This document shows positions 8,137 to 13,659 of a stretch of DNA of 64,000 nucleotides, piece after piece; the stretch's first letter is position 1; every line of letters starts with the position of its first letter. The stretch comes from Comamonas badia DSM 17552 (GTDB lineage Bacteria > Pseudomonadota > Gammaproteobacteria > Burkholderiales > Burkholderiaceae_C), in assembly GCF_000484635.1 (NCBI RefSeq), contig NZ_AXVM01000002.1, positions 372,001 to 436,000 on the forward strand, written 5' to 3'. The notes beneath the pieces were generated by a model that did not search any database, had not been told where the DNA came from, and was given only the letters and a program-made list of their open reading frames with translations. The translations under genes were made by a program, and so were the position numbers.

Positions 8137-8730
8137 ATGGCTTCCCAACGATCTCTCAACCAGCTGTTGCGCGAAATCCGCGCCTGCACCGTCTGCGCCC
8201 CCTTTCTGCCGCTGGGCCCCCGGCCCGTGCTGCAGGCCGGGCATGGCGCGCGCATCCTGCTGGCCAGCCAGGCGCCCGGCATCAAGGTGCACCAGAGCGG
8301 CATCCCTTTCGACGACGCCAGCGGCCGGCGCCTGCGCCAGTGGCTGGGCATGAGCGACGCGGTTTTCTACGACCGCGAGAAAGTGGCCATCGTGCCCATG
8401 GGCTTTTGCTACCCCGGCCGCGCCGCCCAGGGCTCGGGCGACGCGCCGCCTCGCCCCGAATGCGCGCCGCTGTGGCGCAAGCGCGTGATGACCCAGCTGC
8501 CAAACATCGAGCTGACCGTGCTCATCGGCCAGTACGCCCTGGCCTGGCACCTGCCCGAGGCGCGCAAGCTGGGCGTGACCCGCGCCGTGCAGGAATGGCA
8601 GCGCTGGTGGCCGCACACCCTGGTGCTGCCGCACCCCAGCCCGCGCAACAACGGCTGGTTCAAGCACAACCCGTGGTTCGAGGCCGAGTTGCTGCCCAGG
8701 GTGCGCGAACGTGTCAGTTTGTTGCTTTGA
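8137..8730 (+). CDS. Uracil-DNA glycosylase superfamily protein
   Basis: A 197-aa protein of the COG1573-like uracil-DNA glycosylase superfamily. It has an N-terminal CTVC pair (residues about 13-16), the nucleotide-pocket segment LLASQAPGIKVHQSG where classical family 4/5 enzymes have GEAPG-type sequence, and a C-terminal HPSPRNNGW motif matching the HPSPR/HPS region of UDGs. The Ala-Pro-Gly in place of the usual acidic motif I residue suggests altered chemistry or binding only. I chose the ATG at 8137; an upstream in-frame ATG at 8083 would add 18 unconserved residues and lie inside the rarA promoter area. Confidence 0.8.
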   Translation: MASQRSLNQLLREIRACTVCAPFLPLGPRPVLQAGHGARILLASQAPGIKVHQSGIPFDDASGRRLRQWLGMSDAVFYDREKVAIVPMGFCYPGRAAQGSGDAPPRPECAPLWRKRVMTQLPNIELTVLIGQYALAWHLPEARKLGVTRAVQEWQRWWPHTLVLPHPSPRNNGWFKHNPWFEAELLPRVRERVSLLL

Positions 8731-8971
8731 GCATTTTCATTGCCGGCCGGTAATTCAAGCGTAACAACGGTCACGCGTGCAGCAGGCGGCTTTACAGGTC
8801 TTTTCACAGCCATCGAAGGCACGACCAGCCGGCAAGGCTGCTGTTACACGCCGCGTTGCTGCCGCGCAGGCGCGTTTTGATAATGGAAACGCAGCGCCGC
8901 AGCCAAACGGGAGCCGGGTGCCGCCAGGGGGTTGAGGGCTCAGCCCGCCTGCAACCACCGGGAGACTATTC
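8731..8971. other. Intergenic region upstream of the quinoprotein dehydrogenase
   Basis: This 241-bp non-coding stretch should hold the promoter of the alcohol dehydrogenase gene. A GGGAG ribosome binding site lies 8-9 bp before its ATG. I see no strong terminator for the UDG-like gene and no clear long palindrome or sigma-54 site. Confidence 0.5.
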
Positions 8972-10669
8972 ATGCTTAACAGAACGATGAAGCGAAGCGC
9001 TTTTGCTCTGACGGCGGCAGCATCGGCGCTTCTCTTTGCCGCCAGCCTGGCGAACGCCCAGGAATGGGGCACGTATGGCGGCGACGCCGGCAACACACGC
9101 TTCAGCAAGGCCGCGCAGGTCACGGTCAGGAACGTCGGCAACCTGCATGTCAAATGGACGCTGCAGCTCGGCTCGCTGCGTTCGCAGGAATCCACGCCCA
9201 TCGTCATCGGCGACACCATGTACGTGACCTCCTCGTTCGGCCCCGCCACGGTGTTTGCCGTGGATGCCAGGACCGGCACGCTCAAATGGCGCTACCAGCC
9301 GGACGTGCCCAAGGGCATAGACCAGTACGCCTGCTGCGACGTCGGCAACCGCGGCGTGACCTACAGCGATGGCAAGATTTTCGTCGGTCGCCTGGATGCC
9401 AACGTCGTCGCACTCGATGCCAAGACGGGCAAGGAACTCTGGAAGACGGCCATCACCGACTACAAGAACGGCTCGGTCATCACCTCGCCGCCCACCGCGG
9501 TGAAAAACCTCGTGATTTCCGGCTACGGCGGCGGCGAGTATGGCGCGCGCGGCTCCATCGTCGCGCTCGACCAGGCAACCGGCAAGGAGGTCTGGCGCAC
9601 CTACACCGTGCCGTTGCCCGATGAGCCCAACGGCAACACCTGGAAGGGCGATTCGGCCAAGAACGGCGGCGGCGCCGCCTGGTATGTCGGCTCCTACGAT
9701 CCCCAGCTCAATCTGGTGTACTACGGCACCAGCAACCCCTCGCCCTGGGCGGCGGTGGTGCGCGGCAGCGACACCTCCGACATCGGCGAGCAGACCAACC
9801 TGTACACCGCGTCCGTGGTGGCACTGGATGCGGGCACGGGCCAGATCAAGTGGCACTACCAGTTCACGCCGCACGACGCCTGGGACTATGACGGCGTGAA
9901 CGAAATGGTGCTGGGCGACCTGAGCATAGCCGGCAAGAAGACGCCGGTGCTGATGCACGCCAACCGCAACGGCTTCTTCTATGTGCTCAACCGCGCCGAC
10001 GGCAAGCTGATTTCAGCCGAACCTTTCGTTGACATGAACTGGGCCAGCAAGGTGGATCTGGCGACGGGCCGGCCGGTGGAAACCCCGGGCAACAAGATGC
10101 GCCCCGGCATGGACCGCAAGGCGGTGGACATCTGCCCCAGCCTGCTGGGTGGCAAGAACTGGATGCCCATGACCTACGACCAGTCCACGGGCCTGGTCTA
10201 CATCCCGACCAACAACCTGTGCATGGACATGGTCGACACGCAGCCGGAGTACAAGCGCGGCGCCTTCTACCTGGGCAATGATTTCCAGGTCAAGAAGCCG
10301 GTGAAGGGCGACTACATGGGCGGGCTGACGGCATGGAACCCGGTGACGCACAAGCAGGCCTGGCTGGACAAGAACCCGCTGCCATGGACGGGCGGGACGA
10401 TGTCCACGGCCGGCGGCATCGTCTTCCAGGGCAATGTGCAAGGCTGGTTCAACGCCTATGACGCCAAGAGCGGCAAGCAGCTCTGGGGCTTCAACACCGG
10501 CTCCGGCATCTCGGCCGCACCGATGACCTACACCCTGGACGGCAAGCAGTATGTCGCCGTGGTCTCGGGCCGCACCGAAAGCATCCCGGCCTTCATGGGA
10601 GACATCGGCGCGGACGTGGTCAACGCGAGCTCCGAAGGCGGCACCCTGTTCGTCTTTGCCCTGAACTGA
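8972..10669 (+). CDS. PQQ-dependent alcohol dehydrogenase, lanthanide type (XoxF/PedH-like)
   Basis: A 565-aa periplasmic quinoprotein: signal peptide to about residue 29 (ASLANA/QEWG), then an eight-bladed PQQ propeller with W-motif repeats. The vicinal disulfide is Cys121-Cys122 (YACCDVGNRG), GGEYGARG carries the PQQ-contacting Glu, and HANRNGFFYVLNR the conserved Arg. The catalytic Asp305 in WDYDG is followed two residues later by Asp307; that extra Asp is the known marker of rare-earth-dependent XoxF/ExaF/PedH enzymes, whereas Ca enzymes usually have Ala or Ser there. No haem domain is fused. The next gene, 18 bp away, is its probable electron-acceptor/assembly partner. Substrate (methanol, ethanol or another alcohol) is not decidable from sequence. 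Confidence 0.92.
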   Translation: MLNRTMKRSAFALTAAASALLFAASLANAQEWGTYGGDAGNTRFSKAAQVTVRNVGNLHVKWTLQLGSLRSQESTPIVIGDTMYVTSSFGPATVFAVDARTGTLKWRYQPDVPKGIDQYACCDVGNRGVTYSDGKIFVGRLDANVVALDAKTGKELWKTAITDYKNGSVITSPPTAVKNLVISGYGGGEYGARGSIVALDQATGKEVWRTYTVPLPDEPNGNTWKGDSAKNGGGAAWYVGSYDPQLNLVYYGTSNPSPWAAVVRGSDTSDIGEQTNLYTASVVALDAGTGQIKWHYQFTPHDAWDYDGVNEMVLGDLSIAGKKTPVLMHANRNGFFYVLNRADGKLISAEPFVDMNWASKVDLATGRPVETPGNKMRPGMDRKAVDICPSLLGGKNWMPMTYDQSTGLVYIPTNNLCMDMVDTQPEYKRGAFYLGNDFQVKKPVKGDYMGGLTAWNPVTHKQAWLDKNPLPWTGGTMSTAGGIVFQGNVQGWFNAYDAKSGKQLWGFNTGSGISAAPMTYTLDGKQYVAVVSGRTESIPAFMGDIGADVVNASSEGGTLFVFALN

Positions 10670-10687
10670 TGAAGAAAGTGTGAAACC

Positions 10688-11827
10688 ATGAACCTCAAGA
10701 CAGCATGGATCTGGGGTCTGGTTTCTGCAGTGCTGGCAGCTGGCGCCCTGGCGGCGCCGGCTGCATCCGCCGAAACCTTGCGCATCTGCAGCGACCCGGA
10801 CAATCTCCCCTACAGCAAGGCCGAAGGCGCCGAGCATGGCCTGTACGTGGATCTGGCCAACCTGGTGGCGCAGAAGCTCGGCGCGCAGCCGCGATACGTC
10901 TGGTGGCTTTCGATGAACCAGCGCAAGGCGCTGCGCAACACCATCCTCGCCGGCAAGTGCGATGCCTATTTCGCCCTGCCGGCCGACAAGGACTACGGCA
11001 CGCGCGGCATGAAGCGCACCCAGGCCTTCCTGGATGTCGCCTACGCCGTGGTGGCGCCGCCATCATTCAGCTTCTCGCGGCTGGCCGACCTCAAGGGCAA
11101 GCGCATCGGCGTCGGATTTGCGTCCACCCCGCAGATCGTCCTGGCGGCGCAGGGTGGCTACACCACCGTCACCTACCGCACCGACGCCGAGATCCTCGCG
11201 GCGCTGGACAAGGGTGAAATCGATGTCGCCTTCATGTGGGGGCCCGCCGCGGGCTACGACAACCTCACCCGCTATCACGGCCGCTGGCGCGTGACGCCGG
11301 TCGCGGGTGAACACATGGACCACCAGGTCGCGGTCGCCGTGCCGGCAAAAGATGCCGCGCTGCTGGCACGCATCGACGCCGCACTGACCGAACTGCGCCC
11401 CCAGATCACGGCACTCGCTGATAAATACGGCTTTCCGCAAGGCCAACCCGTGGCGGTAGGCATGGCACAGGTCCAGGCCGGGCCCGCCGACGTCGCACTG
11501 GTGCCGACGGCTGCCGGTGGTACACCCTACGGGCAGCCCTCGCCCTACCGGATGATGGCAGTGGCTGCCGCCGACCCGGCGGCAGCCGGGCGCGAGCTGT
11601 TCAACAGCACCTGTTCACACTGCCATTCGCCCAACGGCGCCAGCCCCATCCGCGCGCGCGACCTGCGCCGGCTCAAGGGCAAGTACGGCGACGACTGGCT
11701 GAAAGAGGCCAAGCAAACCATCGAGGAAGGCCGCCCCGACGCCGGCATGCCGACCTGGGGCGGTACGCTGAAGGAAGACCAGATCAACGACATTCTGGCG
11801 TTCTTCAAGACCATCCAGAACAACTGA
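10688..11827 (+). CDS. XoxJ-like periplasmic binding domain fused to a cytochrome c domain
   Basis: A 379-aa exported protein: signal peptide to about residue 28 (AASA/ETLRI), a periplasmic solute-binding fold of the MxaJ/XoxJ type (residues about 30-250; starts ETLRICSDPDNLPYSK and contains WWLSMNQRKALRNTILAGKC), a linker with Pro/Ala/Gly, then a mono-haem cytochrome c domain with C309-S-H-C312-H313 and a likely axial Met354 in AGMPTWGG. In methylotrophs xoxJ and the cytochrome xoxG are separate genes next to xoxF; here the two parts appear joined. It lies 18 bp after the dehydrogenase and is presumably co-expressed with it, taking electrons from the reduced PQQ. Domain calls are firm, the fused-function reading is inference. 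Confidence 0.88.
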   Translation: MNLKTAWIWGLVSAVLAAGALAAPAASAETLRICSDPDNLPYSKAEGAEHGLYVDLANLVAQKLGAQPRYVWWLSMNQRKALRNTILAGKCDAYFALPADKDYGTRGMKRTQAFLDVAYAVVAPPSFSFSRLADLKGKRIGVGFASTPQIVLAAQGGYTTVTYRTDAEILAALDKGEIDVAFMWGPAAGYDNLTRYHGRWRVTPVAGEHMDHQVAVAVPAKDAALLARIDAALTELRPQITALADKYGFPQGQPVAVGMAQVQAGPADVALVPTAAGGTPYGQPSPYRMMAVAAADPAAAGRELFNSTCSHCHSPNGASPIRARDLRRLKGKYGDDWLKEAKQTIEEGRPDAGMPTWGGTLKEDQINDILAFFKTIQNN

Positions 11828-11839
11828 CAGGCCGCGGGC

Positions 11840-12946
11840 TCAGGGTGCTGCGCCGAAATAACGCCGCTTCAGCGCTTCCACCCGCCCTCGGTCCAGTGCG
11901 CCCAGCACGTCCAGGGTCAGCGGCACGGTGAGCGCGCTGCCGCGCGGCAGGGCAAAACCGTAGCGGTCGCGGTTGAACACCCGCCCCACGACCGCCAAGC
12001 CGCTACCCGGGTTGGCGTGCACGTGGTATTCCAGCACCGGCGCATCGGCAATCACCGCGCGCACCTGGCCATCGCTCAGGGCGCGGCTGGCCTGCGCCAA
12101 ATCCGGATAGGTCCGCACCGCCAAGCCTTGGTCGCGGGCATAGGATTCCTCCACGGTGCCAGCGAGCACGCCCACCGGTTCACCGCGCAGATCGTTCACG
12201 CCGCTGATCTGGCTGCGCAGCGTCTGCGCCGTCATCACACTGGTGACCGACGAGGTGACGAAGGCCGCCACCGCAATGCCGCACAAAAGCAGCAGCGCCT
12301 GCCAGATGCGCCCCAGCCAGCCAAACCAGTTCTTGCGCACCGGCGTCTGGCCGCTGACGGCAAATTTCATCGCGGTATAGAAACTCTCGGCCAGGCCGTC
12401 AGGCCAGCGGCGCGGAAATGCCTTGTCGAAGCGCCGATCGAACAGCGTGAACAGCAAGGTAGCCACCAGCAACGCCAACGCAATCCATGCATACGCCCTG
12501 GCATAGCCCGCGCGCTGCATGCCACGCACAAACCCCAGCCAGCCGCTACCTTGTTCGGTGCTGACCATGATGCGCATGCCGCCATCGAACCACGGCTGGG
12601 TGAAGTCCATGCGCCGCGCGCGCTCCTGGTTGATCGTCAGGCTGCTGATCGCCAGATCCACCTGGCCGGCGCTCACGGCATCCAGCAGCTCGCCGAAGCT
12701 GGCGTAGCGGCGGTATTCAAAGGCACGGCCGTCACGCGCCGCCAGTTCTTCCCACAGTTCGATCGCCAGGCCCGTGGTGCGCCCGCCCTCCTCCATCACG
12801 AAAGGCGGGGCGATGGCGACGCCCACCGCCAGCGTTTTGCCAGACGCCGTTTGCGCCCCTGCCGCCCCCGCGGCCAGCACCAGCAAGGCCAGCCAGATGC
12901 CCGCGAGCCATGCAGCAGGGCGGCGGCGCCGAGGCGGATGCATCAT
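11840..12946 (-). CDS. Prokaryotic glutamate-receptor-like channel protein (SBP domain split by a two-helix pore)
   Basis: A 368-aa protein with an N-terminal signal/anchor (LAGIWLALLVLAAGAAGA), the first lobe of an amino-acid-type solute-binding domain (KTLAVGVAIAPPFVMEEGG, QVDLAISSLTINQERARRMD), a transmembrane helix (AYAWIALALLVATLLFTLF, near residue 155), a re-entrant pore region (ESFYTAMKFAVSGQTP), a second transmembrane helix (IWQALLLLCGIAVAAFVTSS) and then the second lobe (LRGEPVGVLAGT to the end). This order is that of GluR0-type bacterial ionotropic receptors. The potassium filter TVGYGD is absent, replaced by AVSGQTP. The ATG at 12946 overlaps the stop of the upstream LprI-like gene (ATGA), so the two are translationally coupled. 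Ligand and ion selectivity are unknown. Confidence 0.82.
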   Translation of the reverse strand: MMHPPRRRRPAAWLAGIWLALLVLAAGAAGAQTASGKTLAVGVAIAPPFVMEEGGRTTGLAIELWEELAARDGRAFEYRRYASFGELLDAVSAGQVDLAISSLTINQERARRMDFTQPWFDGGMRIMVSTEQGSGWLGFVRGMQRAGYARAYAWIALALLVATLLFTLFDRRFDKAFPRRWPDGLAESFYTAMKFAVSGQTPVRKNWFGWLGRIWQALLLLCGIAVAAFVTSSVTSVMTAQTLRSQISGVNDLRGEPVGVLAGTVEESYARDQGLAVRTYPDLAQASRALSDGQVRAVIADAPVLEYHVHANPGSGLAVVGRVFNRDRYGFALPRGSALTVPLTLDVLGALDRGRVEALKRRYFGAAP

Positions 12947-13389
12947 TTCATCGCAGGCCCGGGCACCGCGCACTGGGCCGCCGCCTGCTCACCGCCCTTG
13001 TAGCAGGCCAGATGGTCCTGCAGTTCGATGTTGCGCGTCCGCGTCAGCCCGGCCATGCAGTCGTTCATCATCATCGGGTAGATGCTGCCATCCGCCACAC
13101 GCATCGCGGTGAAGCTGCAGGCACTGCCGCGAAACCGCAACCAGTCGCGCTCGGCATGCGTCAGCAGGTCGCGCGCCTTTTGGTCCGCGCCCAGACGATC
13201 CATGATCTGCCGGTAGAGCTGGTTGAGCTGATCGTCCTCGCGCTTGAGCGCGGCCGAGGCGCAGGCGTTCAGCTGGGCCTGGGTTTGCGCCTTCTGGTAG
13301 CACGCATCATCCGCCGCCCGCGCGGCCAGCGCCGACCCCGCCAGACCCAGCACCGCCGTCGCTACGGCGGCAAGACAGGACACACGCAT
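12943..13389 (-). CDS. LprI-like (DUF1311) exported protein
   Basis: A 148-aa protein with a signal peptide (MRVSCLAAVATAVLGLAGSA, cleavage near residue 26) followed by a cysteine-containing domain of the lysozyme-inhibitor LprI/DUF1311 type: QTQAQLNACASAALKREDDQ, LNQLYRQIMDRLG and LLTHAERDWLRFRGSAC are the characteristic segments. Members are periplasmic; lysozyme inhibition has been shown only for some. I chose the ATG at 13389 because it starts the signal peptide; the reading frame extends 49 codons upstream without matching features. Overlaps the next gene by 4 bp. Confidence 0.85.
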   Translation of the reverse strand: MRVSCLAAVATAVLGLAGSALAARAADDACYQKAQTQAQLNACASAALKREDDQLNQLYRQIMDRLGADQKARDLLTHAERDWLRFRGSACSFTAMRVADGSIYPMMMNDCMAGLTRTRNIELQDHLACYKGGEQAAAQCAVPGPAMK

Positions 13390-13659
13390 CACGGAACTCC
13401 CCGGTTGGCTGATGAGCGGAAAAAACGTGTAAATCCTAATGCAAGCCAAGTCCCGCGCGACCGACGCCGGGTGTGCACATTGCCCGCGCGCCGCGTTGGG
13501 TGCGGGCACCCAGCCCAGCCTGCCATTTATTTTCAATAGCTGACTACGCTTGCTCTATATGCGCTGGAGGCACTTTTCGCCCCGAATCAGCGAAACAAGA
13601 GTGCGACGGGGAAGCTGTCCCAGACAGTGGCGGCGCAATGGCGGCGCAGTGGCGGGAAT
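13390..13659. other. Intergenic region between the LprI-like gene and gph
   Basis: A 270-bp stretch between the start of the LprI-like gene and the stop of gph (both on the minus strand). Apart from the dispersed repeat copy at 13530-13577 and the presumed promoter of the LprI-like gene near 13400-13450 (locally AT-richer), I see nothing recognisable in it. Confidence 0.6.
13530..13577 (+). repeat. Dispersed ~48-bp repeat, copy 2 (intergenic)
   Basis: Reads TTTTCAATAGCTGACTACGC, TTGCTCTATATGCGCT and GGAGGCACTTTT. It matches the rarA copy position by position over the ATAGCTG, CGCTTGCT and TGCGCT blocks, and the reverse complements of the copies at 31340 and 35845, including the GGAGGC block. 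Confidence 0.8.

Follow-up and report, generated by a model that had tools for sequence, protein, structure and literature searches.

A lanthanide-type PQQ dehydrogenase and a J-cytochrome c fusion in Comamonas badia: an apparently undescribed variation on a rare-earth enzyme system

The function of the J proteins that accompany PQQ dehydrogenases is unsettled, with apo-enzyme loading, regulation and mediation of the enzyme–cytochrome contact all having been proposed (PMC12997753). A locus of Comamonas badia DSM 17552 bears on this question through a single chain that joins a J-type domain to a cytochrome c, encoded just downstream of a PQQ-dependent alcohol dehydrogenase. What might J do when it is built into the same polypeptide as a cytochrome? 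The window analysed here is the whole stretch of 64,000 nucleotides that contains the two genes. The leading reading, to which we assign a probability of roughly 0.65, is that they form a periplasmic alcohol-oxidation cassette in which a J-tethered cytochrome docks on, and is reduced by, a probably lanthanide-dependent enzyme.

The dehydrogenase and its predicted metal site

The first open reading frame (8972-10669, +) encodes a PQQ-dependent alcohol dehydrogenase (ADH) of the methanol/ethanol family, which scores 655 bits against the NCBIfam profile TIGR03075 ("PQQ-dependent dehydrogenase, methanol/ethanol family"), above the curated cut-off of 480. Its features are the following.

8972..10669, + strand: PQQ alcohol dehydrogenase with a D-x-D (lanthanide-type) metal site, 565 aa, from profile matches and trees
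About residues 1-29, + strand: dehydrogenase Sec signal peptide, predicted by eye
9332..9337, + strand: adjacent Cys121-Cys122, the vicinal Cys pair of the enzyme family, aligned with all reference ADHs
9536..9538, + strand: Glu189, predicted metal ligand, from alignment to XoxF 4mae/6dam and PedH 6zcw
9734..9736, + strand: Asn255, predicted metal ligand, from alignment with solved enzymes
9884..9886, + strand: Asp305, predicted catalytic base and metal ligand, from alignment with solved enzymes
9890..9892, + strand: Asp307, additional Asp that marks lanthanide-type enzymes, from alignment; S/T in calcium-type references

The WDYDG motif begins at residue 304, and the initial annotation was therefore right in numbering the extra Asp as 307, two residues past Asp305. 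Its further claim, that this Asp is a lanthanide-type ligand, is borne out by alignment with the XoxF and PedH structures, in which Glu189, Asn255, Asp305 and Asp307 coincide with the lanthanide ligands. Specifically, position 307 is D in XoxF (4mae, 6dam) and PedH (6zcw), S in ExaA (1flg), T in the type II quinohaemoprotein ADH (1kv9) and likewise S/T in the host's own quinohaemoprotein ADH. D-x-D is an accepted sequence predictor of lanthanide use, and the structurally characterised XoxF and PedH enzymes that carry it use lanthanides (PMC11996626). In the present dehydrogenase the motif likewise predicts lanthanide use and is no proof of lanthanide dependence.

In the ADH tree, the 20 enzymes at least 51% identical to that of the window form one clade (support 100/99), which stands apart from XoxF, PedH/ExaA and the quinohaemoprotein ADHs. 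The initial annotation set the enzyme beside those of the XoxF/PedH type; its place in the tree is in the separate 20-member clade, and both specific candidates are ruled out, XoxF because the enzyme falls outside the XoxF clade and PedH/ExaF because it does not group with the PedH/ExaA references. All four lanthanide ligands are present in the alignment in 20/20 clade members. An enzyme that depends on calcium, or is promiscuous for its metal, in spite of D-x-D is quite unlikely in view of this complete ligand set, which contrasts with S/T in the calcium-type references, and of the lanthanide use of characterised XoxF and PedH. Such a reading would draw on the motif being a sequence predictor, on the facultative metal use that a recent survey predicts for part of the D-x-D enzymes, membrane glucose dehydrogenases among them (PMC11996626), and on the fact that no lanthanide uptake gene was identified in this analysis.

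Separately, the near-invariant Trp before the catalytic Asp is aligned as His/Phe/Glu/Tyr in the D-x-D ADHs of five other loci (L096, L097, L107, L129 and L130), which also contain J and cytochrome genes.

The J-cytochrome polypeptide and its distribution

Eighteen nucleotides separate the dehydrogenase stop codon from the ATG of the second open reading frame (10688-11827, +), whose 379-residue product consists of a signal peptide, an MxaJ/XoxJ-type domain, a linker and a CSHCH/Met cytochrome c. The reading frame and profile matches thus confirm the domain composition first noted for this neighbouring gene. Its features are as follows.

10688..11827, + strand: J-cytochrome fusion protein, 379 aa, from profile and PDB matches
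10688..10771, + strand: predicted Sec signal peptide of the fusion, residues 1-28, by eye
10772..11443, + strand: full-length MxaJ/XoxJ-type periplasmic binding domain, residues 29-252, from TIGR03871, 6onp and motifs
11237..11245, + strand: WGP motif, common to other J proteins, residues 184-186
11444..11569, + strand: fast-evolving linker rich in Ala, Gly and Pro, about residues 253-294
11570..11824, + strand: class I cytochrome c domain, residues 295-379, from Pfam PF13442 and PF00034
11612..11626, + strand: haem-binding motif CSHCH, residues 309-313
11747..11749, + strand: Met354 (MPTWG), predicted axial haem ligand, conserved in 8/8 fusions

The top NCBIfam match of the N-terminal domain is TIGR03871, the "quinoprotein dehydrogenase-associated putative ABC transporter substrate-binding protein" of the MxaJ/XoxJ group (E 1.5e-33, profile 2-230/232); the score of 116 bits lies under the curated cut-off of 212, though the alignment is full-length. 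Among the PDB matches listed, the top one for this domain is XoxJ 6onp (E 7e-13), and the motifs R-[IVL]-C-x-D-P-x-N-L-P and W-G-P are present in 8/8 fusions. Together, profile, structure match and motifs uphold the proposed relationship to XoxJ/MxaJ. Pfam places the domain in the SBP_bac_3 superfamily; an ordinary amino-acid SBP is ruled out by the relative scores (1.5e-33 for the XoxJ/MxaJ family vs 3.6e-13 for the amino-acid SBP match) and by the WGP motif.

The C-terminal domain matches Pfam Cytochrome_CBB3 (E 8e-11) and Cytochrom_C (E 2.5e-9). XoxG, the cytochrome named for comparison in the initial annotation, is ruled out as a candidate: the domain has no match to the MoxG/XoxG profile TIGR03872, which was searchable, as its weak matches to other cytochromes attest, and XoxG is absent from the best 60 of the 69 PDB matches to the fusion. 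Against TIGR04494, the PedF cytochrome c550 profile, the fusion cytochrome scores 26.7 bits and an unfused sister cytochrome 54 bits (E 1e-14), both below the cut-off of 122; by this comparison the unfused sisters appear weakly PedF/c550-like. A PHROGs search gave no useful match, and an AlphaFold model of the fusion built from a two-row alignment was unusable (mean pLDDT 37).

A search for other proteins with the same XoxJ-cytochrome order, suggested at the outset, found them beside homologous dehydrogenases; the same fusion adjoins the same enzyme type in 8 genomes from two classes, the window's included. The nearest named relative at the locus is Comamonas sp. SCN 65-56 (Comamonadaceae), with 89% identity in the fusion and 94% in the enzyme. 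Further fusions occur in a second member of that family (G318, 56% identical), in a different family within the order (G188, 48%) and in another class of the same phylum (G529, G607, G426 and G480, 35-38%), where the linkers are longer. Since the genomes sampled were an even draw from larger groups, with few candidates scored in each, the fusion and clade counts are lower bounds. A scan of genome contigs for the fusion returned the 89% relative as its sole match, and the plasmid collection held no fusion, just J alone, PedH-type clusters or other ADHs. A frame-shift, an assembly artefact or a chance joining is ruled out, because the fusion is intact in 8 genomes.

Both fusion domains are under purifying selection, with a dN/dS of 0.05-0.10 in each between the window and Comamonas sp. 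SCN 65-56; the linker is 69% identical between these two, against 91-94% for the domains. This selection, together with retention at 35-56% identity across two classes and the lack of any split version in the fused branches of the sample, makes it unlikely that the fusion is neutral, that is, that J and cytochrome genes just lost a stop codon with no mechanistic consequence. As for a route to such a loss, operons of Methylocella tundrae and Sinorhizobium medicae have the order ADH-J-cytochrome with a 4-bp overlap between J and cytochrome, from which one small deletion could yield a fusion of this kind. ADH-J-cytochrome operons are a plausible raw material for the fusion, though their ADH and cytochrome types are others.

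The gene immediately downstream encodes a cytochrome related to that of the window in 19/19 assessable clade members, namely those with enough flanking DNA; 8 of these partner cytochromes are fused to J, as the C-terminal part, and 11 are without J, the latter being 41-47% identical to that of the window. The fused cytochrome is 40-47% identical to its solo sisters and 28-39% identical to cytochromes beside other ADH types. As the cytochrome adjoins the enzyme throughout the clade and J does so in just 8 members, the cytochrome is probably the ancestral partner, and we infer from this distribution that J was added to its N-terminus. In the J tree, the fused Js form one group (support 84/80), distinct from XoxJ and from most other sampled Js. 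A single origin of the fusion is likely but not proven, because the J tree joins the two fused branches and the ADH tree leaves open the order of both and of the solo branch.

Host context and the proposed role of J

The host genome (3.68 Mb, 24 contigs) contains the PQQ synthesis genes that were expected elsewhere in it: pqqBCDE lie at locus L030 (C6:126001-146000), together with a TonB receptor and a PedH-like WDFDG dehydrogenase that scores 795 bits against PedH 6zcv. The same locus also holds a SoxH-like hydrolase, a SoxYZ-like carrier and a flavocytochrome-c-sulphide-dehydrogenase-like flavoprotein. The PQQ ADHs found in the host are the window's enzyme, this PedH-like one and, away from the PQQ locus, a quinohaemoprotein ADH with WDYT; neither XoxF nor MxaF was found, in keeping with the original characterisation of the genome as non-methylotroph-like. 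The fused J is the sole J-family protein detected in the host genome.

In the window and in Comamonas sp. SCN 65-56, the dehydrogenase and fusion genes sit between the uracil-DNA-glycosylase (UDG) gene and gph, and in 6 congeneric genomes UDG is followed by gph at the same place with the cassette absent; gain or loss therefore affected both genes together. On its way from the cassette to gph, the window also carries a gene (11840-12973, -) that was not found there in Comamonas sp. SCN 65-56; its product resembles a prokaryotic glutamate-receptor channel, in that two stretches matching a glutamine-binding-type SBP domain flank a weak Lig_chan ion-channel-like segment. An LprI-type (lysozyme inhibitor) protein is encoded close to the cassette (12943-13536, -).

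Among the 19 cassette-clade carriers, 17 have pqqC. The one complete genome of the other two is G318 (rated 100%); both pqqC and pqqE are missing from it, but a gene for a PqqU-like TonB receptor lies directly downstream of its ADH/J-cytochrome pair (L088, G318:C22:448001-463000, 8442-10637); the protein is full-length (E 3e-212), below the equivalog cut-off. This combination suggests that the G318 enzyme runs on scavenged PQQ. A second TonB receptor is encoded upstream of the pair at L088. Additionally, a CoxG-family (SRPBCC) gene lies near the cassette in two distant genomes (L088 2281-2865 and L090 9342-9800), which may point to a common substrate context.

PQQ capture beside the PqqU-like receptor of G318 would also fit a J domain that acts as a genuine sensor or carrier and binds the alcohol, its product or PQQ as solute, devoted to substrate or cofactor capture and not to enzyme maturation, and the SBP_bac_3 membership of J agrees with such a function. 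It is nonetheless improbable, given that no ABC permease lies next to the window's fusion and that no amino-acid SBP match comes near the XoxJ/MxaJ match in strength.

In the favoured reading of a J-tethered, docking cytochrome, the dehydrogenase would carry PQQ, and the metal held by Glu189/Asn255/Asp305/Asp307 would most likely be a light lanthanide; the enzyme would oxidise an alcohol or aldehyde in the periplasm, reducing PQQ. The second gene would yield one exported polypeptide composed of an MxaJ/XoxJ-type domain, a flexible linker and a class I cytochrome c dedicated to the enzyme. Bound to the dehydrogenase, the J domain would first aid uptake of PQQ and metal by the apo-enzyme, as proposed for XoxJ (PMC12997753), and then hold the tethered cytochrome at the enzyme. 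The fusion haem would reoxidise PQQ one electron at a time, and the cytochrome would hand the electrons to the respiratory chain. We infer the metal identity, the enzyme-to-fusion electron flow and the activation role of J from sequence, the electron transfer specifically from the invariable enzyme–cytochrome pairing.

Alternatively, J could be a docking adaptor alone, which loads neither PQQ nor metal and raises the effective concentration of the electron acceptor to which it is covalently tied. An adaptor role is among the proposals for J-type proteins (PMC12997753) and has been put forward for the truncated J of XoxG:J, a fusion known from Methylacidiphilum (PMC6688271); moreover, the solo-cytochrome sisters have no J at the locus. 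One solo-cytochrome genome, G165, contains no J-family protein at E 1e-15, and together with these sisters it indicates that the enzyme type probably does not require J. The adaptor-only role is a possible, if tentative, alternative to the favoured reading, since the fused J has its full length and every family motif, in contrast to the truncated J of XoxG:J, and is the only J-family protein found in 4 fusion genomes, which agrees with the full J role having been kept.

Collectively, the fused and solo sister systems provide a controlled comparison, in which enzyme clade and cytochrome type stay constant while J is present or absent at the locus. They also point to a branch of lanthanide-type dehydrogenases that is distinct from XoxF and PedH/ExaF and occurs in heterotrophs lacking XoxF/MxaF. 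A bolder and rather doubtful extension is that this branch is a third lanthanide-dependent lineage, alongside XoxF and PedH/ExaF, with a cytochrome of its own that gained a full-length J independently; a single polypeptide would then both mature the enzyme, by insertion of PQQ and metal, and drain its electrons. If so, J would be a persistent docking subunit, not a transient chaperone, and in one carrier the J-cytochrome would serve an enzyme living on scavenged PQQ. The compact two-gene cassette could also be of use in expression or bioelectrochemical work.

Comparison with known systems

The XoxF-XoxG-XoxJ system of Methylorubrum extorquens AM1 unites the same three functions in one cluster and shares the J homology (6onp) and the D-x-D site, but it differs from the window in its three separate genes, XoxF-clade enzyme and XoxG-type cytochrome. 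In M. extorquens, loss of XoxJ or of XoxG each amounts to loss of XoxF1 and XoxF2 (PMC7391723). PedH/ExaF with PedF and PedG/ExaJ likewise combines a lanthanide-type ethanol dehydrogenase, a c550-type cytochrome and a J-like protein, also in non-methylotrophs (PMC12997753), whereas PedH/ExaA forms another clade than the window enzyme and pedF and pedG are separate genes. In the Methylocella, Methylocystis and Sinorhizobium plasmid operons (L128-L130; ADH-J-cytochrome(-cox)), the gene order equals the domain order of the fusion and the enzymes are of the D-x-D type; here, however, J and cytochrome are separate, and the ADHs are 39-40% identical to the window's and lie near XoxF in the tree.

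A literature search of limited coverage found neither a description of a J-cytochrome fusion of the window type nor biochemical work on a member of the dehydrogenase clade, and the cassette is apparently a variation, hitherto undescribed, on a rare-earth enzyme system that is itself known. The statement in the initial annotation that XoxG and XoxJ are normally separate needs correction, as a XoxG:J fusion has been published in Methylacidiphilum (PMC6688271, PMC8498564, PMC8170126). This protein (cytochrome cGJ) of Methylacidiphilum fumariolicum SolV and relatives likewise combines a cytochrome c and a J-type domain in one polypeptide and takes electrons from an adjoining lanthanide-type PQQ dehydrogenase (PMC8498564, PMC6688271), as may the window fusion. 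In XoxG:J, the cytochrome comes first and J is truncated, whereas in the window J comes first and is full-length. Methylacidiphilum keeps a separate xoxJ beside XoxG:J, whereas no second J was found in the host genome, and the Methylacidiphilum cytochrome and enzyme are XoxG and XoxF, whereas those of the window are neither. With its reversed order, full-length J, non-XoxG cytochrome and other enzyme clade, the window fusion looks like a solution independent of XoxG:J.
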